Positions 41,802-64,000 of a stretch of 64,000 nt of DNA are shown one piece after another; positions within the stretch are counted from its first letter, which is position 1, and each line of letters begins with the position of its first letter. The notes under the pieces are model-generated. The model ran no database searches. It had not been told where the DNA came from and saw only the letters and a program-made list of their open reading frames with translations. Origin of the DNA: Candidatus Dormiibacterota bacterium (GTDB taxonomy: Bacteria; Chloroflexota; Dormibacteria; CF-121); contig DASZZN010000028.1 of the NCBI GenBank assembly GCA_035544955.1, forward strand, positions 1-64,000. Direction: 5' to 3'. A program made the position numbers and the translations under genes.

Positions 41802-42683
41802 TTAACTTGGCGCAAGGAAGTACACAGCGCGGATCGGCAGGAGTTGTTTATCTGACTCCGCAACCTTGTCAAAGTGCTTGATCCAAAGTCGGACGAGATC
41901 ATCGAGATGAATCACGGTGATATGGCGCTTCTCGTGACGAGCTTCCTCCTGGGCGTCACTGGTAAAGCCACCCGTCGAAACGAAGATTCCGACGTCGGTT
42001 TCTCCGATTGTGGACAGGAACGAACGGAGCTTATCGGCTGGCACTGGCGATTCTTGACGTTTTACCTGCACTTTGATGCGTGGCACCCTTGTTCCAAGTG
42101 GGTCACTAAAGGCGATAATGTCAACCCCTCGATCTGGCCCGGGCGGAGCCACGTGGAAAACGAAATAGTCCATGGCCCTCAAGAGCGCGGCAACCAAATT
42201 CTGAAAATCGTACGGTGGCATTTTCTCCACGTATTCGCGGATTTGGGTTCGCGCGCTTTCCTCAGCCTCTTCAAGCACGACGGACGTCTCCACTTCGTCC
42301 GCTTCCGTTTCCTCGACATCGGGCGCTTTCGGCTGGGCTCCCTTCCAGGCCCGATACAAGCGCCAAGCCTCGTCGATGAATGCTTCTGGGGACGAGAATT
42401 TCGCGTATGCCTCCTTACCTAGCGGGGTTACGGACCATCTCCCGTCGCCTTTCGCCAACCAGCCCGCCTTCACTGACGTAATGGTGCTGAAGCGGATGAC
42501 TTTTTCAAATCGACGTTGGCCAGGATTCTTTGGGTAGTCACTCTGTTCGAATGGAGTTGGGGGACGGACCGCTTCGACTCGGCGGAGGGCTTCCTGCGCC
42601 TGGAGGCCATTTGGTTCATCCAGCAGTACCTCAAAGACTGCTCGAACAAGCTCACCCTTGCGTCGTTTAGTGATTTCAGCCAT
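41802..42683 (-). CDS. mrr: Mrr-family restriction endonuclease
   Basis: 293-aa modification-dependent restriction enzyme. The N-terminal winged-helix domain (about 1-115) includes RRFEKVIRFSTITSVKAGWL. A spacer rich in Glu follows. The C-terminal Mrr_cat domain (about 155-280) has FQNLVAALLRAMDYFVFHV and the nuclease motif D-(x)n-QVK: GPDRGVDIIAFSD...RIKVQVKRQ. Its N-terminal domain is clearly similar to that of the McrB-like protein at 59784. It follows hsdR by 25 bases on the same strand, so it is probably expressed with the type I system. Confidence 0.88.
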   Translation of the reverse strand: MAEITKRRKGELVRAVFEVLLDEPNGLQAQEALRRVEAVRPPTPFEQSDYPKNPGQRRFEKVIRFSTITSVKAGWLAKGDGRWSVTPLGKEAYAKFSSPEAFIDEAWRLYRAWKGAQPKAPDVEETEADEVETSVVLEEAEESARTQIREYVEKMPPYDFQNLVAALLRAMDYFVFHVAPPGPDRGVDIIAFSDPLGTRVPRIKVQVKRQESPVPADKLRSFLSTIGETDVGIFVSTGGFTSDAQEEARHEKRHITVIHLDDLVRLWIKHFDKVAESDKQLLPIRAVYFLAPS

Positions 42684-42708: not shown

Positions 42709-45700
42709 TCACGCCGCCTCGGCGGACGAGCGGACGCGGTCTAAGATCGCGACAAGTTCCTCAACCTCTGCTTCGCTAAAGATTCCCTGCGGCCCCAATG
42801 GCGCGATGTCCGTGAAGGGCGACTCGTAGAACCGTGCCGCGCTCACCACGCCCTGATTGGTGAGGTGCTCGATGATGAGGTTAACGAACTCAATCTGATT
42901 TGCTGTGAGCGTTCGGCCTGCGATGAAATCTGCGAAGGCCTCATTAGCGGCGCCCTTGTCGAGTCCCACCAATCCTCGCACGAAGAGGCCAAGTCCGTGA
43001 CTGTCTTCCTTGGCCTTTGCGATGAGTTTGTAATCACCAATGCTACTCAGCGCCAACAAGGCCTCGAGGGACTGCAGATCCTTAGTCGTCAGTGGCTTAT
43101 TCATCCGGAGCCGGTGGATGGCGATGTTGTCATCGTGTTGGCGGACGAAGGCTCTCGCTTTCTCCCGGAAAGCGTCCATCGACAGCGTAGGAACGGCGTC
43201 CATTAGGACCAGTTCTATCGCCTCTCCAATTTCATCCTGGAAATCGGTGTAAATGGGCTTACGTCTGCTCTTCTCGATGAGACGGACAAGCGAGCGGAGC
43301 TTCTTGCGCGCATCCTCCAACATGGCGACGGTCGTGTCTTGCCACCATTCATCAGACTGCAGCTCCGAAATTAGCGGCAACTGCTCCCGGATCATCGGAA
43401 TGTTCCCCTGCTCTTCAAGCAGGCCGGCGATCTCGATGACCATCGTGCGCAGTCGGTCAAATGAGGGCTCGTGCCGAAGCACAGATAGCTGCAGTCGCAG
43501 CATCAACATGTCGAACCGCTTCGCCTCTTCGTCCTCGGGCTCAAGCTGGGAGGGTAAGCCGGCGATCTCCGTCGCAAGGATGTGGTGGTCTTCCTTGTCG
43601 AGCGTCTCCCAGGCCCCCGCGTTGGCGTACTTTTCGACAAGGCGTCGCTTCGGACGGACGATGAAGTTGTCAACATTCATCGCCGCCACCTGAGCGTGAA
43701 GAGAGACAGCGGTCTCCTGCCGCAGCGCCGGGTCAGCGCTGTCCCCATCGAGGGCGGCGATCAGTTCAAGACGGGTGGTGAATAGCTGTTTGCTGAGCGA
43801 ATCACTGAGCCGCCCCTCGGTAGCAGGAAGGTTCTGGTGGAAAAATTCAAAATTAGCGCAGAAATCGAACACGTAAAAGCAGGTCTTGCTGTCTCCGGGA
43901 CCGAAAAGGTCGGGCCGCAAGCGGGTGCCTCTGCCCATCATCTGCCAAAACTTTGTCTTGGAATACACAGGCTTGAAAAACACCAGGTTAATGACATCGG
44001 GAATGTCGATGCCCGTGTCGAGCATGTCGACAGAGACAGCGATATGTGGCATCTTCCCCGTGGCCGAGAAGTCGTCGATGATTGTCTGTGCGTAGGTCAC
44101 GCCGTGGTGGATGGTGCGAGCGAAGGCACCCTTGTACTGCGGATAGTTGGCATCGAACCGCTCGATGATGAACTCCGCGTGGGCTTGATTCTTAGCAAAG
44201 ATAATCGTTTTACCAAGGCGATCGCCTCCATTCACAGCGAGGCCGTTCAGCATGAGGTGCGCAAGGACCTTATCGACGGTGTCCTCGTTGAAGAGCCAAG
44301 CATTGAGCGCCGCCGGCTCCACGCGCGTTGGGATGTTGCCGTCCTCATCCCACTCCATAGCATCCCAGAGCTCCTTGTCCTCTTCGCTGAGATCCTTATA
44401 TTCGATGCCTTGTCTCTGGAACTTGACCGGAACGCTTACAGCCCGCGGTGGTACAAGGAAACCGTCGTTGACTGCCTCCTCTAGTGAATAAGCGTCCGTC
44501 GGCACGCCGCGCTCGAGGTCAAACAGGCCGTAGGTGTTGACGTCTACCTCATCCTTGGGCGTTGCCGTCAGCCCCACGAGGAGACTGTCAAAGTATTCGA
44601 AAATTGCCCTGTACTTTTGGTAAACGGAGCGGTGCGCCTCGTCGATGACTACAAGGTCGAAATAGCCTGGACCAAAGCGCCGCCTTCCCTCCCGGATTTC
44701 GTTGATCAGACCCATCATCGAGGGATAGGTGGAGATATAGACCCGACCATCCTCGTTCTTATCCGTGACGAGATTGACAGGAACTGAAGACGGCAGATGA
44801 TTCTTAAACGCCCCGACAGCCTGGTTCACCAAGGCGATGCGATCGGCCAAGAAGAGCGCCCTCTTTGCCCAATTGCACCGGATCAGCAGGTCCACCAGGG
44901 CAATGATGGTGCGCGTTTTCCCCGCGCCTGTGGCCATAACCAGCAGCGCCTTGCGTTCACGGTCTCGTTCGAAGCTCTCCCCTATTCTGCGGATCGCCCG
45001 CTGCTGGTAGTAACGTTCGACGATCGCCCGGTTGATGTCCGCCGTTGCCAATGACCGCCGCGTCGAGCGTCGCTGGATCATGAGCTCCAGCTCGTCCTTG
45101 GTATAGAAGCCTTGGACCGAACGCGGCGCGTACATGACGTCGTCCCAGAGCCAATGCTCGTACCCGTTCGTGTAGAAGATCACAGGCCGCTGCCCAAATT
45201 GAGACTCCAGGCAATCGGCGTAAAGCTTGGCTTGCTGCCGCCCGATCTTGGGATCCTTCCTAGTCCGCTTTGCCTCGACCAGCCCAAGCGGCCTTCCGTC
45301 GTCCCCCCAAAGAAGGTAGTCAACGAAGCCTCGCCCGCCCTTGGTTGGCATTCCGGTGACTTCGAACTCGCGGTCGCGAGGTTGGTCGAGCGGCCAACCA
45401 GCTTCGTGCAGCAGCAGGTCGATGAAGCGGTCACGGGTGTCGGCCTCTGAGTAGTCGTGGTCATCGGGCCGCTGCTCGTTCTTGCGCTTTGCCTCCACTA
45501 TCTCCGCACGCAGCTGCCTCAGCTCCGCATCGAGGTCTGTCTTGTCGGTAAGAAGCACGGTGAGCTTCTCGTCGCGCTCGGCGAGAGCCGCTTCTAGCGC
45601 CTGCAGCCTCACAGTGGTCTGGACGGGAATCGCGCTGCCCGAAGCTGGTAAAAGCGCCGGATCGAACGTCAGGCGAGGATCGGGCGTGGCACCGCGGGCA

Positions 45701-46068
45701 TAGGTGTGCGCCAGCCAATAGCAGACGTGGAAGAGCTCCTCGACAACTGCCATCGAAAGCGCCTCGGGAATACGACGGTGCTCGTGTACAGCCCGGTTCC
45801 CGATCTGTGCTATATAGCGAGCTTTTGTGAAGACCGCACCGCCGGCAATCTTCTTGAAGCTAGGGTCATGTATAAGAGCGCTGAGGTTGTCCTGATACGG
45901 CAGGTGCAGAGAGCTGTCCGCCTTGTAGGCCCAATGGACGACCAACTCAAGGGCGCGGCGGGCGTAGAAGCACGAGGTACGCGGATCGCGGCGCGCGTTT
46001 TCCTCGGCCTTGACGGCGGCCTCCTGGATGTCGGGCCACTCATGCACCAGGAAGGAGTAGTTGGTCAC
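42709..46068 (-). CDS. hsdR: Type I restriction enzyme, R subunit
   Basis: 1119-aa motor/nuclease subunit. An N-terminal DUF4145-like domain ([18 protein letters not shown]) is followed by the PD-(D/E)xK nuclease motif ([13 protein letters not shown]...LVEAKRT) near 250-275. The SF2 translocase carries Walker [11 protein letters not shown] near 380, DEAH box VVIDEAHRS near 474, and GLTATPKD near 500. The helicase second domain has [12 protein letters not shown] and [12 protein letters not shown]. The GTG at 46068 overlaps the hsdS stop (GTGA). Cleavage depends on HsdM and HsdS. An upstream in-frame stretch from 46377 is hsdS coding sequence in another frame and is excluded. Confidence 0.92.
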
Positions 46069-47252
46069 AGCTGTCCCACGAAGGCGCCGCGCTGGAGGGA
46101 ATAAAAGAGAGAATCGAGCTGGATCATGCTTCTGCTGCCGAGAGCGCGTATGCGCTCTGTCTGCGCAGTCCGATCGACAAAGGCTGACTGCCAGTGCATC
46201 GGCGGAAGCCGTAGCCGCATGCTTCGCAATTGGCCGAGGCTGAGATTCGTCACTGTGGCCGTGACCTGTGCGCCCCGCATTTGTCTCTGCGCGCTCGCAC
46301 TCATCAACCAGTACGCAAGAAATTCCCCAAGCACTCTGTCGCCGTTCGTGCGAATGATTGCAACCGCCTGATTGCAATTCATTTCGGCATATCTGTTCCC
46401 GACCAAGCCCACCCGGCCAACAGTGCCAGCAATGGAAATCAGAACGTCACCCGGCTTGATTATTGATCGCGCGAGTGTGAGATGCACATCGCGAGAAATG
46501 TACCGGGCGTCGATCTTCTCGTCGACGCCACCTCCAAAGAGGTTGAGAACTCGGATGAACGGAATGCCTCGTGGCGCGAACGCGAATCCGAGAGTTGTTG
46601 GAGTGGTCCCCTTCGTGATAGTAGTTGCGAACTCCCCAACCGTGACGAGCGGCCATGAACCATGCTCGTACTTCTCGCCCCCAAACATCGTCCGGAAGAG
46701 TGAATGGTTTAGTCCGTCTAGCTGAACGAGACTCTTCCGACGCTTGGCCCGGAGGGCATCGGCTCGGTCGAGAATGTCGGCGATACGTCGCTGCTTCGGA
46801 AGGTCCGGTAGCGGCACCTCCAGCGAACGAAGTTTCTCTATCGGGAAATTGTCAGCTGTCGTGGCTCGAACCCACGTGAGGATGGTTGGCGCTGCTGCCC
46901 GCAGGAAGTGCGCGAGGTACTCGGGATCAACTTTTGGTCCGGCCGTCAATGCTTTCATATCCTGGTTCAGAGCCACTGGTACCCGATTGATGGCCACCGG
47001 GATGGAATGCTTCAACACACCCGAGCGAACGACGATCAGCACCGAGTTGGCCGGGACTAGCTTGGTCGCGCTTTCGCGTAGTCCAAGGTCCGTAATGCGG
47101 ATCTGGCTGCCACTCAGGTGTGACGTCTTCATGTCCTTTGGCGTAACCCACGGGATGTCTCCCCCGAAATACGATGGGTTATCTCGTTGAGGGGTGCCGC
47201 CTCCGGCAATTGTCACGAGCTGACCCAGTGGGACCCAAGCCAAGTCGGTCAC
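46065..47252 (-). CDS. hsdS: Type I restriction-modification specificity subunit
   Basis: 395-aa DNA-recognition subunit with two target-recognition domains. The first TRD spans about 5-160 ([20 protein letters not shown], then helix [20 protein letters not shown]) and the second about 200-360 ([21 protein letters not shown], then [15 protein letters not shown]). The two spacer helices set the bipartite target site, which cannot be predicted here. GTG start at 47252 overlaps the hsdM stop; its stop overlaps hsdR. Confidence 0.9.
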
Positions 47253-48787
47253 CCTACCATCGCTTCTAGCTCGCTGAGGCCAGCCTGGATCTCCCCTTCA
47301 AGCTCCTGCAATTCGGCGATGATCTCGTTGGGCGGTCGGTGTTTCACCTCCTCTGGGATGACCTCTCGGTAGCGATTCACGCTTAGGTCGTATCCCTGCA
47401 AGGCGATCTGCGCCTTGGCCACGCAAAAACTCTGCTCGGCGCGAGTCCGCTCTACCTCTGTAGAGTCCCTCTTCCGCCATCGGGCTACCACGTCAGGCAG
47501 ATTATTCTGGGCGTGCTCCTCAGCGGTAAGCGGCTGCCTGGGCGCAACGCCTAGTTTCTCCTCCGGAAGCAGGGGCGCTCGCTTGTCATCGAGAGACCAG
47601 CCGTCTGAACCAAGGTCGTAAAACCAGACATGGTCCGTACCGCCCGAGTCGGTCTTGGTGAACACCAGCACCGCGGTCGACACGCCTGCATATGGTCGGA
47701 ACACGCCGCTAGGCAGCGAAATCACCGCCTCGAGCTTTTGATCCTCGACCAAGATTTTTTTTAGCGCCGTGTGCGCATTGCTGGACCCAAATAAGACCCC
47801 CTCGGGAACGATCACGGCGGCTCGTCCGCCTGGTTTGAGCAGTCGAAGGAATAAAGCGAGGAAGAGCAGCTCGGTCTTCCTGGTCTTGACGACAGCGAGC
47901 AGATCCTTGGCCGTGTTCTCGTAATCGAGCGATCCGGCGAAGGGCGGATTGGCGAGAACCAGCGTGTATTTCTCCTCCTCGCCGGCATGGTCCTGCGCCA
48001 GTGAATCCCGGTAGCGGATGTCCGGATTCTCGATCCCGTGGAGCAACATGTTCATGCTTCCGATCCGCAGCATCGTGTTGTCGAAATCGAAGCCGTGGAA
48101 CATGGTCTCGTGGAAGTGGGATCGCGGTTTCGCGTCCTGCAACATCTTCGGGTAAGCACGGCGCAGATACTCCCCGGCCGAGATCAGGAATCCGGCAGTG
48201 CCGCAGGCAGGATCGCAAATGATGTCCTTTGGCGTCGGCGCCACCAGTTCCACCATTAGCTGAATGATGTGTCGCGGCGTGCGGAACTGCCCGTTTTGCC
48301 CCGCCGTGGCGATCTTGCTAAGCATGTACTCGTACAGATCGCCCTTGGTGTCCCTATCCTCCATCGGGATGTCCGCGATGAGGTCAACCACCTTGGCCAG
48401 TAGTCCCGGCGTCGGGATGGTAAACCTGGCGTCCTTCATGTGTTGCGCGTAAGTCGAACCCTCGCCGCCCAAACCCCGAAGAAAGGGAAAGACGTGCTCG
48501 CCGACGATCGCGAACATCTCCTCGGGCGCTACGTGGCGAAATCGCGACCATCTGAGGTCGTTGTAGGAGCGCCCCCTCGGATCGTTCCCTTCGGAGAAGA
48601 TCCGCCTCTCTATCGGCTTCTTGAGCGTCCGCGCCTTGTTCTCCTCCAGAGTCTGTAGATCATCGAGACGCCGGAAGAAGAGCAGATAGGTGATTTGCTC
48701 GATGACCTCCAAGGGGTTTGAGATGCCGCCGGACCAGAAGGCGTCCCACAGCTTGTCGACCTGGCCCTTAAGCGGTCCGCCGATCAT
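47249..48787 (-). CDS. hsdM: Type I restriction-modification methyltransferase subunit
   Basis: 512-aa N6-adenine methyltransferase. The N-terminal HsdM helical domain (LWDAFWSGGISNPLEVIEQI) is followed by the SAM-binding motif DPACGTAGFLISAGEYL near 190 and the catalytic motif NPPF in LVLANPPFAGSLDY near 285. It methylates adenine in the HsdS-defined site to protect the host. It is the first RM gene after two small membrane-protein genes (28 bases apart), and an ATGA/GTGA-type overlap joins it to hsdS. Confidence 0.92.
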   Translation of the reverse strand: MIGGPLKGQVDKLWDAFWSGGISNPLEVIEQITYLLFFRRLDDLQTLEENKARTLKKPIERRIFSEGNDPRGRSYNDLRWSRFRHVAPEEMFAIVGEHVFPFLRGLGGEGSTYAQHMKDARFTIPTPGLLAKVVDLIADIPMEDRDTKGDLYEYMLSKIATAGQNGQFRTPRHIIQLMVELVAPTPKDIICDPACGTAGFLISAGEYLRRAYPKMLQDAKPRSHFHETMFHGFDFDNTMLRIGSMNMLLHGIENPDIRYRDSLAQDHAGEEEKYTLVLANPPFAGSLDYENTAKDLLAVVKTRKTELLFLALFLRLLKPGGRAAVIVPEGVLFGSSNAHTALKKILVEDQKLEAVISLPSGVFRPYAGVSTAVLVFTKTDSGGTDHVWFYDLGSDGWSLDDKRAPLLPEEKLGVAPRQPLTAEEHAQNNLPDVVARWRKRDSTEVERTRAEQSFCVAKAQIALQGYDLSVNRYREVIPEEVKHRPPNEIIAELQELEGEIQAGLSELEAMVG

Positions 48788-50298: not shown

Positions 50299-50931
50299 CT
50301 AGGCTTTGGCAGCTGGTTTGCGCACGTACCTGTTGAGCAGCAGCGGACCGGCGATGCGCACAAGGCGCCCCTGCTCAGTGTCCGGTGGGTTGCTAGCCTC
50401 GGCCTTGAGGAGCCACTGCCTAATCGCCTGCACGGATGATGCGGAGGAGCGGTCCCCAATGGCGTCTCGAACCATGATGGCCACAACCTGAAAATCTTCA
50501 TTCGCTGAGTTGTAGACCTGAGCCGCCGACATGAACGGTTGGAGCTCTTGAAGCGTTCCCGGACTAGTAGCAGGCCTGTAGAAGCCTTGGACGTCGCGAA
50601 AATGCTCCGCTTCCTGAAACAGCCGGGTTGCTTCTTCACCTAATTCAACGCTCCGCTTCGCCATAGCCGCGTTGCTGAATCGGTCGCCATAATCCCTCGC
50701 TGCCTCCGCTGCTTGCGAGACTGCAACGGCCGCCCGGCTGAGGTGAGCCTTCAGCCCGCCGTACTCGGTCCAAAGGAAGGCCTCCACCTCTGCGCCGCGG
50801 ACGCGGTACCCAGAGGTCCCACCCAGGTTGACGGCCGGTAGCTTTTGGTTCTTGATCCAGCGAAGGACCGTCACCTTGGTCAGCTTGAGTTTTTCGGCGA
50901 CCTCCTCGACCGTGAAAAATCGCTCGCTCAT
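50299..50931 (-). CDS. Excisionase/MerR-type helix-turn-helix protein heading the restriction operon
   Basis: 210-aa protein. The first 55 residues are a classic winged helix of the excisionase/MerR type: FTVEEVAEKLKLTKVTVLRW then IKNQKLPAVNLGGTSGYRV. The remaining 150 residues are alpha-helical, with AVSQAAEAARDYGDRFSNAA and MAKRSVELGEEATRLFQEAE. It could autoregulate the operon or assist excision of an integrated element. A perfect 11-bp inverted repeat overlaps its own promoter. The transcript seems nearly leaderless, since TAAGAT lies eight bases before the ATG and no ribosome site is seen. Confidence 0.75.
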   Translation of the reverse strand: MSERFFTVEEVAEKLKLTKVTVLRWIKNQKLPAVNLGGTSGYRVRGAEVEAFLWTEYGGLKAHLSRAAVAVSQAAEAARDYGDRFSNAAMAKRSVELGEEATRLFQEAEHFRDVQGFYRPATSPGTLQELQPFMSAAQVYNSANEDFQVVAIMVRDAIGDRSSASSVQAIRQWLLKAEASNPPDTEQGRLVRIAGPLLLNRYVRKPAAKA

Positions 50932-52124: not shown

Positions 52125-52766
52125 TTACCCGAGACTCCGTAGAGCGGTACGAAGCTGCTCACCGAACGCCTTGGCATTGGCATTGAGTGCGCTTTCCAGG
52201 GTCAGGAGCTTGGCTGCGTCGGCCCTGTCGGCTAGCGCATTGTTCCAGTCCCAAAAACTGTCGCGGAGAGTACGCCAGACCTTGAATGTCGTCCCCTCGG
52301 GTCCCTCGTCCAGGATGAGGTCGCGCTCACCCTCGCGATAGAGGCGACGCCACTCTTGCTCGAGCTCGTAGGCCCTGTCGAAGTTGCCTAGCTTGACCGG
52401 TCCCTGTTCTGGAATCGGCAGTTGGGGCCGTCCCTTTGGGAAGTGCTTCAACTCTCGCTGCAGCTCGAGCAGCGTCTGTACCGCAGCCATGAGCAATCCG
52501 GATGCGTTCCGGCGGAGGTCATAGCGTCGCTCGAGCCGACCTCGGGTTGTCTGGAGGGTGAAAACGAACAGGCCGAAGAAGCCAGATCCAAACAGAGGTA
52601 GAGCGGCCTCGCGAAGCTTGCCTGTTGTCTGGCTGGCGTTGCTCGGCACCGGCAGGAAGACATCGGCGATGACCGCCGCAAGCAGCACGACGTTGAGAAC
52701 CCAGAGGACGAGCAGCAGCCAGGATCCCAGGAGCCATCTGAGAGAGACCTCCGCCTTTTGCTTCAT
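52125..52766 (-). CDS. Two-helix membrane protein with cytoplasmic domain, cassette gene
   Basis: 213-aa protein with two N-terminal hydrophobic helices (LGSWLLLVLWVLNVVLLAAV and LPLFGSGFFGLFVFTLQT) and a cytoplasmic helical part rich in Arg/Glu (YELEQEWRRLYREGERDL). It is the first gene of a tight three-gene set, with 16-base gaps to the next membrane protein and then to the PIN protein. It lies 70 bp left of the tRNA-Cys fragment. No family recognised. Confidence 0.6.
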   Translation of the reverse strand: MKQKAEVSLRWLLGSWLLLVLWVLNVVLLAAVIADVFLPVPSNASQTTGKLREAALPLFGSGFFGLFVFTLQTTRGRLERRYDLRRNASGLLMAAVQTLLELQRELKHFPKGRPQLPIPEQGPVKLGNFDRAYELEQEWRRLYREGERDLILDEGPEGTTFKVWRTLRDSFWDWNNALADRADAAKLLTLESALNANAKAFGEQLRTALRSLG

Positions 52767-52836
52767 GAATTGTGGTCAAATTTCGCCGCCGTCGGCCAAT
52801 ACCGCTTGTCGCCGCCTAACTTCGTCTTGAAAAAAC

Positions 52837-52885
52837 TGGAGGCGAGTGCGGGATTCGAACCCGTGGTGGAGGTTTTGCAGACCTC
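52837..52885 (-). other. 3' half of tRNA-Cys(GCA), probable integration (att) scar
   Basis: On the minus strand the sequence has an intact anticodon arm (GAGGT-CTGCAAA-ACCTC, anticodon GCA), variable bases, the T-arm with TTCGAAT loop, the 3' acceptor strand ACTCGCC, and TCCA at the end (52837-52840). The 5' half (GGCGAGT, D-arm) is absent to the right. This is exactly the segment that tRNA-targeting integrases duplicate. It cannot be a working tRNA. By the orientation, an element would extend to the right of this point, with the complete tRNA-Cys at its far end outside the window. Confidence 0.75.
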
Positions 52886-52965
52886 TTCATTATTTTGGGT
52901 TCCAACCGATCTGGGCAGGGCATCTCCACACGCTCGGTCTTGCCAGATCGGCCTTAGGCACGGCT

Positions 52966-56403: not shown

Positions 56404-56489
56404 TTGGCCCTTCTACTCCAAAGTCACTCTAGGGCCGGGTTGCGACAGCTGTGTGTCGCAAGACCGTTTGCACCCGATACTGTGTGCGA

Positions 56490-59400
56490 ATGGCAAAACC
56501 TGCCCCCAGCCGGGAGCTGGCCCCAGGCCTCTATGAGGCCATCCTTACAGACTTTTTGCAGGCGAGACTCCCGACCGACGAGAAGCTGTTTCGCCTAGAC
56601 AAGGTCGATCGCGCTGACATCGCTCGCATTTTGGCGAGCCATGTCGGGTCATTGGTGGAAAAAGTCCTGATGGCTCCTCACATTCAGGCCGACGCTGGGC
56701 GTCAGGTCGCGATGGTTAACGATCTTATCCAAAACCTTGTGGCAGCCGCCCCGGAACTGGGTGTCTTTGGCGATCAGACCGTCGACAAGGATGGCCGGCA
56801 ACTGATCGAGCTGCTTCGAGTACTCGACGGAGGGTTAGGAGGCCTCATTTCCTTAGAGCGGCCGGACATCCCGCTAAGCCAAAACGCACTGCTCGTTGCA
56901 GCGAAGCAAGAGCCCGCATTTGGCTCCTCGATCAAGAAGGAACTGGAGTCGGCGGATAGGGTCGACCTCCTCTGCGCCTTTGTCGTCTGGAGCGGCATTC
57001 GGATATTCATGGACCAGCTTCGTCGACTCCGCGATAGAGGGGTTCCAGTTCGCCTGATAACGACGACCTATACGGGGACCACCGACGTTCGGGCCCTCGA
57101 GGAACTTGCGAAGATCGGCGTGCAAATCAAGGTCTCGTACGACACTGGGTTTACTCGCCTGCATGCGAAGGCATGGCTCTTCACCCGGGATAGCGGCTTT
57201 TCGACGGCCTATATCGGTTCGTCCAATTTGACGCATACGGCGTTACATGAGGGCCTCGAGTGGAACGTCCGCCTAACTCAGGCCAGCTCGCCCGAGCTCC
57301 TGGACCGGTTCAGCTCGGTATTTACGACCTATTGGGAGGACCCCCGGTTCGAGGACTACAACAGGGACGCGTTCGTTGCCGCCATTGCTCGGGAGACCCG
57401 TGATTCGACGACGGAACTCCTCCCCTTCGAGCTGCAGCCATATCCCTTTCAGCGAGAGATGCTCTACCGGCTAGAAGTCGAGCGGACTGTTCATAACCGC
57501 TGGAAGAACCTCATCGTAGCGGCCACCGGCAGCGGGAAGACCGTCGTTTCTGCCTTTGATTACAAGCAGATCTGTCGAGACTGGCCTAACGCTTCGCTCC
57601 TCTTTGTCGCCCACCGCCAGGAGATTTTGAAGCAAAGTCTCGTGACTTATCGCAACGTACTGCATGACGGAGACTTTGGCGAGCTTATGGTGGCCGGTGA
57701 GAAGCCTCGCGATGGCAAGCATGTCTTCGCGTCGATTCAATCCCTCCATCACACAAACCTGGCGGATCTGGCGCCCGATTTTTACGATGTCGTGATCGTC
57801 GACGAGTTCCATCACGCGGAAGCCCCGACCTACACACGGCTGCTTGACCATCTGAAGCCGCGGCTGCTAGTTGGGATGACAGCCACTCCGGAGCGGACCG
57901 ATGGGCTCGATATCAAGCGCTGGTTCGACGGGCACATCGCGGTGGAGCTGCGCCTATGGGATGCATTAGAGCAAGGCCTGCTTTGTCCGTTCCAATACTT
58001 CGGGGTTTCGGACGGCGTCGACTTGTCCGAACTCACGTGGGCGCGAGGCGGCTACGACACAAGACAACTCGGCCAAATTTATACGGGCAACGACATTCGC
58101 GTCCGGAAGATCCTTGACGCAGTGCAGGAAGTGGTTGAGGCGCCTACGCGCATGAAGGCTCTGGGATTCTGCGTCAGCGTGGAACATGCAAAGTACATGG
58201 CCGAGCGCTTTTCCATGGCGGGCATCCCGTCCTTGGCCGTTTCGGGAATCTCAAGCGACGCCGATCGATCGCAAGCGCTTCGCGACCTGCGCACCGGAAA
58301 GACCAATGTCCTATTTTCCGTCGACCTATTTAACGAAGGCTTGGACATTCCGGACGTCGACACCGTGATGCTTCTCCGCCCAACGGAGAGCCCGGTTGTC
58401 TTTCTTCAACAGCTAGGCCGGGGGCTTAGGCATGCGGAGGGGAAAGCCGGTCTTACCGTGCTCGACTTCATCGGCCAGCAGCACAGGCGGTTCAGGTTCG
58501 AGGAGCGGTTCAAGGCTCTGCTCGGTATGAATCGGAAGGAGGTCCTGGATCAGGTCGAAGACGGCTTCCCCTATCTACCTGCCGGGTGCTCGATAACCCT
58601 CGACCGTCAGTCCCAGAAAGTGATTCTCGACAACATCAAGGGTTCGGTTGCCAAGCTCAGGGCCGAGTTGGCCGAAAAGCTCCAGGAATTGGGTGACGTG
58701 TCACTAGAAGATTTCTTGGCGCGCACAGGCGTCGAACTTGCCGATGTGTACTCCGGCGGCAATCCTGGTTGGACGGTCATCCGCCGGCAAGCTGGCTTTG
58801 CTGGGGATCCGACGGCGGACGAGGCTCTGCTGAGTAAAGCCGTGAGTCGGATGCTGCATATCGACGATCCTTTGCGCGTCGCAACCTATACAGAAAGGTT
58901 GTCCCAGCCAGGCCGCGGCGTCGATGGAATTGACGAGATGACCCGGCGTCTATTGGGCATGCTCCATTTCGATCTCTGGTCGAGCGACAACTCGTCTATC
59001 GGACTTCGAGAATCGCTTGCCAGACTGTTTAGAAGCCCGAATATTGTTAACGAGCTCCGCGAGCTCCTGGCCATCCTTGGTGCCAACTCGACCCACCTCA
59101 TCAAGGACGCGGACCTTCCTAAGGAAGTTCCGCTCAAGCTACACGCTCGATATACGCGAAACGAAATTCTCGCTGCCTTTGGTGAGGCCACGCCCGAAAA
59201 GCCTCCTCAATGGCGAGAGGGCGTCCGTTGGGTCGAGAGATATATGACTGACCTCTTCCTTGTAACTCTGAATAAGTCGGAACGGCGATTCTCGCCAAGC
59301 ACACGGTATCGCGATTATCCGATCTCTCCCGGACTGTTTCATTGGGAATCGCAGTCCACAACCTCTGCTGCCTCGCCCACCGGGCAGCGGTACATCAACC

Positions 59401-59597
59401 ATGCGGCACGCGGCACCACGGTCCTTCTGTTTGTGCGCGAAAACTCGGCCGGCGAGTCTTTGGGGGCTTCGCCTTTCATTTTTCTCGGGAAAGCTGCCTA
59501 CGTAAGTCATGAGCGAGACCGGCCAATGGCCATAACCTGGCGGCTGGAGAACGAAATGCCTCCCGATTTCTTTCAGATCGCAAAGGCCGCTGTCTAA
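56490..59597 (+). CDS. PLD nuclease-SF2 helicase-DUF3427 protein
   Basis: 1035-aa defence-type protein. An N-terminal region contains a phospholipase D-like nuclease with LHAKAWLFTRDSGFSTAYIG and SSNLTHTALHEGLEW (HxK and GSxN motifs near 230-255). An SF2 helicase follows, with Walker A AATGSGKTVV near 345, DEFH box IVDEFHHAEAP near 440, GMTATPERTDGLD, VDLFNEGLDIPDVDTVM and QQLGRGLRH. The C-terminal DUF3427 domain (about 850-1035) carries FLGKAAYVSHERDRPMAITW. It probably translocates and cuts DNA or RNA with the PLD module. I choose ATG 56490; 13 residues upstream are Cys/Arg-rich and unlikely. Confidence 0.87.
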   Translation: MAKPAPSRELAPGLYEAILTDFLQARLPTDEKLFRLDKVDRADIARILASHVGSLVEKVLMAPHIQADAGRQVAMVNDLIQNLVAAAPELGVFGDQTVDKDGRQLIELLRVLDGGLGGLISLERPDIPLSQNALLVAAKQEPAFGSSIKKELESADRVDLLCAFVVWSGIRIFMDQLRRLRDRGVPVRLITTTYTGTTDVRALEELAKIGVQIKVSYDTGFTRLHAKAWLFTRDSGFSTAYIGSSNLTHTALHEGLEWNVRLTQASSPELLDRFSSVFTTYWEDPRFEDYNRDAFVAAIARETRDSTTELLPFELQPYPFQREMLYRLEVERTVHNRWKNLIVAATGSGKTVVSAFDYKQICRDWPNASLLFVAHRQEILKQSLVTYRNVLHDGDFGELMVAGEKPRDGKHVFASIQSLHHTNLADLAPDFYDVVIVDEFHHAEAPTYTRLLDHLKPRLLVGMTATPERTDGLDIKRWFDGHIAVELRLWDALEQGLLCPFQYFGVSDGVDLSELTWARGGYDTRQLGQIYTGNDIRVRKILDAVQEVVEAPTRMKALGFCVSVEHAKYMAERFSMAGIPSLAVSGISSDADRSQALRDLRTGKTNVLFSVDLFNEGLDIPDVDTVMLLRPTESPVVFLQQLGRGLRHAEGKAGLTVLDFIGQQHRRFRFEERFKALLGMNRKEVLDQVEDGFPYLPAGCSITLDRQSQKVILDNIKGSVAKLRAELAEKLQELGDVSLEDFLARTGVELADVYSGGNPGWTVIRRQAGFAGDPTADEALLSKAVSRMLHIDDPLRVATYTERLSQPGRGVDGIDEMTRRLLGMLHFDLWSSDNSSIGLRESLARLFRSPNIVNELRELLAILGANSTHLIKDADLPKEVPLKLHARYTRNEILAAFGEATPEKPPQWREGVRWVERYMTDLFLVTLNKSERRFSPSTRYRDYPISPGLFHWESQSTTSAASPTGQRYINHAARGTTVLLFVRENSAGESLGASPFIFLGKAAYVSHERDRPMAITWRLENEMPPDFFQIAKAAV

Positions 59598-59783: not shown

Positions 59784-62700
59784 GTGAGCGATTCTAAGCT
59801 AGCCTCCTCCACCACCTCCAACTCGCTGACTCCCCGAGCCACGCTGATGCGAGCCGCGTGCGAAGCCACCGCCGCGGATCCGATTGGGATTCCGCTAGCG
59901 AGCGTCTTCGATAAGGTCGCCACGATGCTTCCCCTGACTGCGGCCGATTTGGAACCGATACCGGATTACCCAAAAGAAAGACGCTTTGAAAGTAATCTAC
60001 GCTTCACCTCGATCAACGAGGCCAAGGCCGGCTGGCTGACAAAGATCAAGGGCATCTGGTCAATAACCAACGCCGGACGCCGCGCCCTTGCGGATTACCC
60101 AGACCCATCAGTTTTTCATAAGGAGGCTCAGCGCCTCTATAAGATGTGGAGCGCTAACCAAGAGCCTCGTGTCGAGGCCAAGTCGACAGGCGAACTTGAC
60201 CGCACAAGTGCTGACACTGCGCGTGCGCTTATGAGGCTCTTCTATCCCGATCAAGCGGTACGGGAATACTGTGAGGAACGGTTGGCAGCCAGTATCAGAT
60301 GGTCGGATGAAGCTCGCCCTGGCAGTTGGTCAGTGTCTATGCATGACACTCGCTTTCGGCTTATTGCCGGAAGAGTCTTCGTGTTTGACCTGGTTCCGTC
60401 TGAGGTCAACGTGGTCGTGGCGGGGGTGGGCATGGACGATAAAGAATTGGCTGCACTCGGAGAAGCCGGTGCCGTAGAGCCGTGGAAGACAGGACTTATG
60501 CCGGATTTCCAGACAGTGACAGTTAAGGCCGAAAAACTCGCTACTGCTTGGCCTGAGCTTGAGGATGCTCATCGGGACGCAATTCTGCGAGCTGCAAAAA
60601 CAGCCAGCCGATCACCCTACATGAGCGCCCACTCGCGTGGCATCACCGCGATGCTCAGAGAGGACGTCGGCCTGGATGTCGCGGAGCCGCATGGACCCGA
60701 ATTGGCCCCAGAAAAGATCTCAACAAGCCTCCAGGTTCGCACGCTGGCCGAGGCCTTAGCGGATTGGAATCGGGACAGCGCCTCGAGCCAGGTAGAGGCA
60801 GCCGAATTGGAACGAAAAGCGATCGTCGAGAAGTATCCGTTATCGGATTGGCCGACGATGACTCTTCAGCAATTCGCGCTGGGCCAAGACAAGGACGGCG
60901 ACACCTTCTGTTATGTGATGGAGTTTGGCTCTCCTAGGTTGGGTAGCATTCGTGGTGGGTCAGCCCGGAAGCTAATCATCTATAAGCACGCTACCCAACC
61001 CGGCTGGTACTTCGACCCCAAGTATTCCAGCGAAGAAACCGCGTGGAATGCAGTTAGGGACGCTTTCGTCCAGGCGTTTGAACTGGGGGAAAAGTACGAT
61101 TTCTCAGCGATTGAGGCGCTCGGCCCCCTCCGTCCGGGGCCTGCGCTCCGTACAAAGAGTATTTTCACCTACTTTCCGGATCGTTTGCTGCCCATATATT
61201 CATCGGCCCATCTGGAGCACTTCACGCGCTTGTTGGATGGCCCGCCAGCTACGCTCACCGCTGTCGCGGCAAATCGGCGACTCTTCGATTTGATCTACGC
61301 GAGGCCGGAGTTCAAGGGATGGTCGACTTTCGAAGTCGGCCTATTCCTTTATCAGTGGGCCCACCCCCGTCAGACTAAGCGCATAGTCAAAATCGCCCCG
61401 GGCCGGGATGCGATCCTGTGGGATGAGTGTCGAGAGGGCGGCTTCATCTGCGTCGGCTGGGATAAGGTTGGTGACCTCGGCCGGTTTGGGTCCGAGGGCG
61501 AATTTAAAGAAGAGTTCACAGCTCAGTACCTTGATGAATACAAGGGCTCACAGGCTGCCACGAGTCTCAAGGCGGGAGAAGTATGGACGCTCCGGGAGCT
61601 CGAGCCTGGTGATCTAGTCATCGCTAACAAAGGTATCTCCCATGTCCTCGCAATAGGCACCGTCGTTGAGCCCGGGTATGTTTGGCGACCGGAGCGGCCC
61701 GAATACAAGCACACCGTCAGCGTCAAATGGGACGTGTCGGCCGAGACTGATATCGAACCCGTCCCTCAGTGGGCAATGAAGACGGTTGCCAACGTATCGC
61801 AAGAGCTTTATGGACGAATCATGCATGCTGCACCCGCCGGGTCGAAGTCCGAGACGCCTCCGAGCGATCTTCTGGAAATGCTCGGGCACGAACTCGACCG
61901 CCGAGGCCAGGCCATCCTCTACGGACCTCCGGGAACGGGCAAAACATACAACGCTCGACGATTTTCCGTTTGGTGGTTGCGAAGCGCCTGGAAGAAGGAA
62001 GACGCCAAGTGGGTACTCGGCGACAAGGATCTTTTCCAAGACGTCGAGGAAGAACTCACCTTGGTTCCGAACAATGACCCGAAACGCGCTGCCATCCTAA
62101 CCCGGGTCACCTTTCACCCTTCATATTCATACGAGGATTTCATCGAGGGATATAAACCACGACCAACAGAGGGAAAGGGTGGCCTGGAGCTCGAGCTCAG
62201 ACAAGGTGCGTTCATGCGAGTCTGCCGCGAGGCTGCTGCGGATCCGGAAGGCCGGCCTTACCTTATCGTCATCGATGAAGTGAATCGGGGTAACATCCCA
62301 AAAATCTTTGGGGAGCTCATCACGCTCCTAGAAAAGGACAAGCGAGCCTTTCAAGTCCTACTACCGCAGAGCGGAGAGCGGTTCGGGGTGCCGAGCAACG
62401 TGTTCATGATCGGCACCATGAACACTGCTGATCGCAGCATCAGGCTATTAGATGCCGCCTTGCGGCGCCGGTTTTCGTTCATCGAGCTCATGCCGAACGC
62501 TGACTTACTTTCCGGCGGGAGCGTCGAGGGTCGGTTGTCATTAGACCTCTTCCTTCGACAGCTGAATGAGCGGATTGCGAAGGAAGTTGGGCGCGAAAAG
62601 CAGATTGGGCACTCCTATTTCTTAGACGATCAGGGAGCGCCCGTAACGACAGCCGAGGCGTTCGCCCCACGCTTCCTGAGGGAAGTGGTGCCTCTCATTC

Positions 62701-62870
62701 AAGAGTATGCATACGACGACTTCGACATCTTCACTGAAATTCTGGGCCCCGGCTTAGTGGATGCTGTGAGGCAACGCCTGAAACAGGAGGTTCTGGATGA
62801 CCCGCAGGCGCTTGTCGAGGCACTAGCAGCAGAATTCAAGTCCGGGGAAGTTGATGCCGACGAAAGTTAA
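59784..62870 (+). CDS. mcrB: McrB-like AAA+ GTPase with winged helix, DUF3578-like and EVE-like domains
   Basis: 1028-aa modification-dependent restriction motor. Residues 1-120: winged helix (RRFESNLRFTSINEAKAGWL) closely similar to the N-terminus of Mrr at 41802. About 350-480: DUF3578/MrcB-N-like domain (CYVMEFGSPRLGSIRGGSAR). About 535-650: EVE/PUA-like domain (FICVGWDKVGDLGRF, GDLVIANKGISHVLAIGTVV) that would read modified bases. About 700-1000: McrB AAA+ with Walker A GPPGTGKTY near 712, Walker B LIVIDEVNRGNIPKIFGEL near 826 and MIGTMNTADRSIRLLDAALR. GTG start at 59784. It overlaps mcrC and would form the McrBC restriction complex. Confidence 0.9.
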   Translation: MSDSKLASSTTSNSLTPRATLMRAACEATAADPIGIPLASVFDKVATMLPLTAADLEPIPDYPKERRFESNLRFTSINEAKAGWLTKIKGIWSITNAGRRALADYPDPSVFHKEAQRLYKMWSANQEPRVEAKSTGELDRTSADTARALMRLFYPDQAVREYCEERLAASIRWSDEARPGSWSVSMHDTRFRLIAGRVFVFDLVPSEVNVVVAGVGMDDKELAALGEAGAVEPWKTGLMPDFQTVTVKAEKLATAWPELEDAHRDAILRAAKTASRSPYMSAHSRGITAMLREDVGLDVAEPHGPELAPEKISTSLQVRTLAEALADWNRDSASSQVEAAELERKAIVEKYPLSDWPTMTLQQFALGQDKDGDTFCYVMEFGSPRLGSIRGGSARKLIIYKHATQPGWYFDPKYSSEETAWNAVRDAFVQAFELGEKYDFSAIEALGPLRPGPALRTKSIFTYFPDRLLPIYSSAHLEHFTRLLDGPPATLTAVAANRRLFDLIYARPEFKGWSTFEVGLFLYQWAHPRQTKRIVKIAPGRDAILWDECREGGFICVGWDKVGDLGRFGSEGEFKEEFTAQYLDEYKGSQAATSLKAGEVWTLRELEPGDLVIANKGISHVLAIGTVVEPGYVWRPERPEYKHTVSVKWDVSAETDIEPVPQWAMKTVANVSQELYGRIMHAAPAGSKSETPPSDLLEMLGHELDRRGQAILYGPPGTGKTYNARRFSVWWLRSAWKKEDAKWVLGDKDLFQDVEEELTLVPNNDPKRAAILTRVTFHPSYSYEDFIEGYKPRPTEGKGGLELELRQGAFMRVCREAAADPEGRPYLIVIDEVNRGNIPKIFGELITLLEKDKRAFQVLLPQSGERFGVPSNVFMIGTMNTADRSIRLLDAALRRRFSFIELMPNADLLSGGSVEGRLSLDLFLRQLNERIAKEVGREKQIGHSYFLDDQGAPVTTAEAFAPRFLREVVPLIQEYAYDDFDIFTEILGPGLVDAVRQRLKQEVLDDPQALVEALAAEFKSGEVDADES

Positions 62871-64000
62871 GGCATTACCCCCTCCTGTTGTGATGTATGA
62901 GTGGCAAACCGTTGAGGTGCCTGACGTACGTCAGACGAAATTTGATGCGGCGCTAACCCGCAGCCTGCATGAGCAGAACGACCTCATGCTTGACGTTCAA
63001 TGGCTTCAAGGCGACCGTGCACGAATCACAAGTCGCTCCTGGGTAGGCGTCGTTCGGTTCGAGACCTTCGAGGTCAGAGTTGTCCCCAAATTCGTTGGCG
63101 GGAACCTCGGCATCTTGCAGATGCTGGATTACACTCACGGCCTCGACTCGATTCGCAGGCTGGAGGCTCTGCAGCACCTCGAGGGGGACGGCGACAGCCT
63201 GGTGGATTTGGTTTGCTGGCTGCTGGCGGACCAATGTGAGTATGTACTTCGCCATGGCCTGCTAAGCGATTACGTGACCCATGAAGAGACCCTCAGCGCA
63301 CCGCGAGGGCGTCTTCAGATCGACCGGCAAATCCGTCTCCACTATGGTCAGGTCGATAGACTCGAATGCCGATTTGACGAATACGAGTCCGACATTCTCG
63401 AAAATCGGATCTTAGCCGTTGCCCTTCGTAAGGCTCGTGCGGTTTGCAGGAACGAGCGGGTACGAGCGATGGTCAGGCACATCGAGCCACTGTTTTCCGA
63501 AGTGTGTCCCACGGATAACCTCGATCTTCAAACGACGCGTCAGCAACTCGCCTACCATCGTCGAAACGCGCATTACAAACGAGGGCACCATTGGGCTTTT
63601 CTACTTCTCGGAGGCGGTGCCATCAAGGATGTTTACACGGCCGGCCTGGCGGAGGCCTTCGCTTTCATGTTTGATATGAACCGCCTGTTCGAGGAATTTG
63701 TGGAAAGGCTCTTGCAGAATGCCTTTCAGGGCACGGAGCACCGCGTCAGCCCACAGAGCCGTACGCACTCGATCGTTGTGGACGAGAAAGGCAAGAACTA
63801 TTCCACGGTGATCCCAGACCTATTGCTCAAGTCCGGTATGGGTAGTGCGGCGCGAATCGTACCGATCGATAGCAAGTACAAGCTTTACTCGGACCATAAG
63901 GTGTCGCCAAGCGACATTTACCAGGCATTTCTATACGCGTACGCCTTCGCCGCCCCGGGAAGCTTGCCAACCGCTGGCATCATCTTTCCAGCCGTTGAAG
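62854..64000 (+). CDS. mcrC: McrC-like nuclease subunit, 3' end off the window
   Basis: At least 382 residues from ATG 62854, which lies 17 bases inside mcrB and has GGGGAAG upstream; a second ATG at 62893 is possible. N-terminal McrC blocks are present: VGVVRFETFEVRVVPKFVGG, then LDYTHGL and RGRLQIDRQIR. The PD-(D/E)xK nuclease follows as VIPDLLLKS...RIVPIDSKYKLY with DIYQAFLYAYAF near the edge. McrC supplies the cutting activity to the McrB ring. The last residues are outside the window. Confidence 0.9.
   Translation, partial: MPTKVKALPPPVVMYEWQTVEVPDVRQTKFDAALTRSLHEQNDLMLDVQWLQGDRARITSRSWVGVVRFETFEVRVVPKFVGGNLGILQMLDYTHGLDSIRRLEALQHLEGDGDSLVDLVCWLLADQCEYVLRHGLLSDYVTHEETLSAPRGRLQIDRQIRLHYGQVDRLECRFDEYESDILENRILAVALRKARAVCRNERVRAMVRHIEPLFSEVCPTDNLDLQTTRQQLAYHRRNAHYKRGHHWAFLLLGGGAIKDVYTAGLAEAFAFMFDMNRLFEEFVERLLQNAFQGTEHRVSPQSRTHSIVVDEKGKNYSTVIPDLLLKSGMGSAARIVPIDSKYKLYSDHKVSPSDIYQAFLYAYAFAAPGSLPTAGIIFPAVE

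Follow-up and report, generated by a model that had tools for sequence, protein, structure and literature searches.

A tRNA-Cys 3' half, probably an orphan attachment core, within a defence island of a Candidatus Dormiibacterota bacterium

CIME/ICE accretion and tycheposons are comparison systems for tandem arrays of islands at a single tRNA gene. Islands in tRNA genes, including tandem arrays and a crossover centred on the anticodon, have been catalogued (PMC4383910), and Islander, under a definition stricter than the one used here, lists only four tandems of at least three in 2168 genomes (PMC4383910). Integration away from the primary site also has precedents: secondary attachment sites have been described for archaeal integrases (PMC8371274), and integration of SGI1 at secondary sites has been described as well (PMC2297512). 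A literature search combining Chloroflexi, tRNA-Cys and integrase returned no papers.

The partial tRNA gene considered here lies in a 64,000-nucleotide stretch of DNA (the window), which corresponds to bases 1-64000 of contig C28 (80499 bases). The assembly to which it belongs (G000) is 95% complete and consists of 52 contigs, and the fragment has 27.6 kb of C28 on its right.

The tRNA-Cys fragment and the island around it

Read on the minus strand from 52885 down to 52837, the fragment is GAGGTCTGCAAAACCTCCACCACGGGTTCGAATCCCGCACTCGCCTCCA, which comprises the anticodon arm with its GCA anticodon, the variable loop, the T arm, the 3' acceptor strand and CCA; the 5' half is missing. The first-pass annotation had called it a tRNA-Cys 3' half running from the anticodon arm to CCA, and both the sequence and its alignment to the intact gene agree with this. 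Identity to the intact tRNA-Cys of the same genome is 95-98% (E about 1e-19): with the intact gene as query, the window copy covers tRNA positions 22 to 77 at 95% (E 5.6e-19), and comparison of the gene with the 52837-52885 stretch gives E 6e-22. The single mismatch within the half is CCACGGG in the window copy for CCGCGGG. ARAGORN reports no tRNA in the window, Rfam yields nothing above threshold and only chance-level matches in the fragment region, and searches of all of C28 for the T arm, the anticodon core and the arm motifs return the known fragment as the sole tRNA match. When the whole genome was searched with a tRNA model, 49 full tRNAs were found along with eight matches below the cut-off, six of which are tRNA-Cys halves, the window copy among them. 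Given this recurrence and the E value of 6e-22, the fragment is confirmed as real, far beyond chance. As a 3' end that begins in the anticodon arm, it is also a terminal tRNA fragment of the sort that Islander uses.

The fragment and its neighbours are arranged as follows.

41802..42683, minus strand: Mrr-type restriction endonuclease
42709..48787, minus strand: type I restriction-modification set HsdR, HsdS, HsdM
50299..50931, minus strand: HTH_17 protein, left block
52125..52766, minus strand: 213-aa ORF of unknown family
52767..52836, minus strand: 3' flank in the tRNA sense, with a T run after CCA; 70 bp up to the 213-aa ORF
52837..52885, minus strand: tRNA-Cys(GCA) 3' half, probable orphan att core; weaker identity extends to 52892
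52886..52965, minus strand: 5' flank in the tRNA sense, 80 bp from the fragment to the nuclease-helicase stop codon
52966..56403, minus strand: nuclease-helicase (RNase_H_2 and AAA_11/AAA_12)
56451..59597, plus strand: PLD-helicase (PLDc_2, ResIII, DUF3427; PADLOC mREase_IV)
59784..62870, plus strand: McrB-like AAA_5 protein
62851..64000, plus strand: McrC (McrBC component), continuing past the window to C28:64224

Sequence common to same-genus relatives stops at ~41.26 kb and resumes at ~68.02 kb on C28; contigs of these relatives match to about 41.3 kb and from about 68.0 kb, and none bridges both sides. The intervening ~27 kb (41260 to C28:68020) is rich in defence genes and has no match in the same-genus relatives. 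To the left of the fragment are the Mrr-type nuclease, the type I restriction-modification set and small ORFs, and to the right are the nuclease-helicase, the PLD-helicase, McrB and McrC, followed by a UDG-family gene. The GC content is 0.587 and 0.600 on the two sides of the fragment, as against about 0.654 in host stretches, and because both sides are about equally low, the contrast across the fragment gives no direction. For HsdM and the neighbouring 213-aa ORF, no match turned up in any other of 110 class genomes. Relatives of the nuclease-helicase do occur in G020 and G022, from another family of the class, and no tRNA fragment lies beside them in either genome. It had been proposed that the fragment splits the island into at least two accretion events: a composite island is indeed plausible, but the fragment by itself neither dates nor bounds its parts.

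tRNA-Cys copies and integrases elsewhere in the lineage

The genome contains seven tRNA-Cys 3' halves: besides the window copy there are two on C5 and four on contig C33, of which one is badly decayed. The only intact tRNA-Cys detected is at C33:114795-114868. The partial copies on C33, at 112090, 110718, 106896 and, strongly decayed, 105225, share a common orientation behind the tRNA and are 1.3-3.8 kb apart. The region C33:105225-114868 is thus an array of three clear 3' halves and one decayed one behind the intact gene; its units have one or two genes each, among them those for a molybdopterin oxidoreductase, a glycoside phosphorylase-like protein and an alpha/beta hydrolase. No complete integrase is present in this array. 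A truncated tyrosine integrase, an ORF that comprises the N-terminal part of such a protein and is then cut off, begins ~115 bp behind the C33:112090 fragment.

Most copies in G000 are accompanied, in the tRNA sense, by a pair of TGACGGCAA repeats together with others resembling GAACTCTGGYGAACT, which stand 5', 3' or on both sides of the core, where integrase arm sites are expected; judging from this placement, we regard these direct repeats as putative integrase-binding arm sites. Among random C28 stretches of equal length, only 0.1-0.2% contain at least two such sites. In the family member G015, a nearly full-length Phage_integrase protein (E 1.7e-24), with an apparent frameshift close to its start, directly follows the intact tRNA-Cys. 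Relatives share the gene order 5' of the intact tRNA-Cys and vary on its 3' side, and the block shared among the tRNA-Cys copies begins in the anticodon arm. From the integrase remnants, the arm repeats and the variable 3' side it follows that tRNA-Cys is a genuine integration hot spot in the lineage, and the fragments come from a family of tyrosine-integrase elements that recombine in the anticodon loop of tRNA-Cys. The remnants and repeats at the other copies also uphold the earlier description of the window sequence as the kind of 3' half left by tRNA-targeting tyrosine integrases.

A gene beginning MEPIVLFGIQF... follows tRNA-Cys fragments in G002, G007, G011 and G014; in G007 the order is clpX, arm repeats, the tRNA-Cys 3' half and then this gene. 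It has no match in G000, so no clean empty site can be read there. At G014:C43, about 914-951, the upstream region of the tRNA-Cys apparently runs straight into the T arm, with all of the intervening sequence missing through either a deletion or an assembly collapse.

The two C5 copies, at 139632 and 140804, lie inside an insertion (C5:139468-146930, to about 146.9 kb) between the threonine dehydratase gene and the next gene, a place that is empty or different in relatives. The insertion contains a Na/Ca exchanger gene and genes reading as extra copies of clpC and clpX. In G007, matching clpC/clpX cargo stands next to a tRNA-Cys fragment. In G008 the threonine dehydratase gene is joined directly to the gene at C5:147.9 kb, G007 is similar, and neither has a tRNA fragment at the equivalent locus; the exact junction of the C5 insertion with the relatives could not be read. 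On C5, a tRNA-Cys half without 5' arms comes after the resident gene, and the arm sites and cargo are 3' of it. This genome therefore does have DNA bearing a tRNA-Cys 3' half at a locus other than a tRNA gene, either by off-target integration or by later recombination, and as a consequence orientation alone does not give the side on which an element lies.

The same arm signature is found at tRNA-Ser, where the intact gene (C14:188518) has arms behind it and 3' halves with longer arm arrays are located on C38 near 9.0 and 15.7 kb and on C14 near 274.6 kb. In this tRNA-Ser(TGA) family, the 3' halves are preceded by TGACGGCAAC-CG-TGACGGCAAC and by clustered GAACGTTGGC repeats of 10 bp, and a broken integrase is present with the family on C38 (7853-15890). 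Matches to PF00589 (Phage_integrase) in G000 are confined to C51, C14 and C38. An intact tyrosine integrase of 381 aa is encoded at C14 17039-18181 (minus strand), and just upstream of it is a small helix-turn-helix gene that looks excisionase-like by eye.

Origin of the window fragment

Beside the window core we counted no arm-type direct repeats on either flank, and other close direct repeats are likewise missing from both, in contrast to the C33 copies under the same examination; the 5' flank contains a perfect 9-bp inverted repeat (52906-52914/52943-52951). Missing arm sites are not proof of decay, since the same count also gives zero at C33:106909 and at the intact genes of G011, G012 and G015. 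The flanks do not match those of the C33 and C5 copies past the tRNA core, no second core that could mark the matching junction of an insert was found on C28, and repeats, direct or inverted, joining 52.8 kb to the island edges (~41.3 and ~68.0 kb) are of chance length only.

We consider the window fragment to be, more likely than not, an orphan and degraded att core in a composite low-GC defence island. Tyrosine-integrase elements would recombine with tRNA-Cys in the anticodon loop, each would as a result carry a copy of the tRNA-Cys 3' half, and tandem or off-target insertions would scatter these halves. One of them may have ended in the present C28 defence island, beside the nuclease-helicase gene, while its integrase, its arm-type binding sites and its partner att site would have been lost or left elsewhere. 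With these gone, the window copy would be a scar rather than one end of an element able to excise; it presumably arrived by the same route as the other copies and is probably inert. What speaks against an orphan core is that its 49 bp are well conserved, so that it need not be old. In addition, with C28 stopping 27.6 kb to the right of the fragment and with 52 contigs giving 95% completeness, a gap in the assembly may hide a second tRNA-Cys or a partner site.

The first-pass annotation instead took the fragment as the limit of an intact mobile element, acting as attR, the distal att site of a right-hand element with the nuclease-helicase, the PLD-helicase and McrBC that ends at an intact tRNA-Cys. 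The orientation is canonical for a right-hand element (a principle laid out in PMC4383910), and the right block, with its low GC, looks foreign. However, the fragment is one of seven scars and lacks arm sites on both flanks, including the 5' one that matters for a right-hand element, and over the 27.6 kb to the contig end there is no tRNA, let alone the intact cognate that Islander places 5' of the fragment on the same replicon at a distance of 2-200 kb. Nor is there a tyrosine integrase gene in the interval: C28 has no match to PF00589 or to the integrase stump. The only intact tRNA-Cys detected is the one on C33, whose 3' side has its own, different array and continues unbroken for 114 kb; to span the distance from this gene to C28, an element would need >142 kb and would include genes that, judged by eye, resemble those of histidine biosynthesis. 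Finally, no att-like repeat is seen at ~68.0 kb, where the same-genus shared sequence resumes, and we regard this origin as improbable.

The mirror image of that model, in which an element with a tRNA-Cys 3' half of its own inserted off target behind the nuclease-helicase gene and now lies on the left, deserves somewhat more credence, unlikely as we judge it to be. The fragment would then be attL and the element would be the block of type I restriction-modification and Mrr genes at about 41.3-52.8 kb. Such an arrangement would parallel C5, where the half comes after a resident gene, arms and cargo are 3' and the locus is tRNA-free in relatives; it is also consistent with HsdM and its 213-aa neighbour not having been found in any other of the 110 class genomes and with nuclease-helicase relatives existing in another family of the class. 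On the other side, the 3' flank has no arm sites, the left block has no integrase, its left edge has no second core, and GC is just as low in the right block. Were one side to be preferred, the parallel with C5 would point, with low confidence, to the left block as having come with the fragment, contrary to the earlier annotation. It is highly improbable that the fragment and its flanking DNA moved from the C33 array by chromosomal rearrangement or by homologous recombination between copies, with no integration on C28: seven near-identical short repeats at three loci would be substrates, and the tRNA-Cys surroundings are shuffled among relatives, but neither window flank matches the C33 or C5 flanks beyond the tRNA core. 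A broader proposal, for which we see little likelihood, is that in this lineage the 3' halves of tRNA-Cys and tRNA-Ser, together with their conserved arm repeats, would act as a portable att site for very small integrase-less cargo units of 1-4 kb, which a shared tyrosine integrase would mobilise in trans and deposit at loci other than tRNA genes, and that such cassette-like traffic also brought in one half of the defence island.

Relationship to described islands

The orphan-core reading of the window copy cautions against letting a single tRNA 3' fragment define where an island ends, as orientation alone can misplace the element when several dispersed copies exist. The copies also suggest that integration at tRNA-Cys and tRNA-Ser has been frequent in a little-studied family of soil Chloroflexi, and its arm-repeat signatures may be of use in mapping elements with decayed integrases.

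In kind, the window fragment is known and ordinary biology. It shares with Islander islands (PMC4383910) the displaced 3' tRNA half and the anticodon-centred crossover, and integrases and arm repeats of such a kind exist at tRNA-Cys in the lineage; unlike those islands, the window copy lacks a linked intact tRNA, an integrase and a definable element interval, and the Islander filters would discard it. The C33 region, where four 3' halves succeed one another behind the tRNA, resembles the tandem island arrays (PMC4383910), although its units are tiny and without a complete integrase, and the window copy lies outside it. The C5 insertion is like the secondary-site islands of archaeal integrases (PMC8371274) and of SGI1 (PMC2297512), in that an element-borne att core is found off the primary site at a locus empty in relatives; it differs, as does the window copy, in that no exact empty-site junction could be shown.
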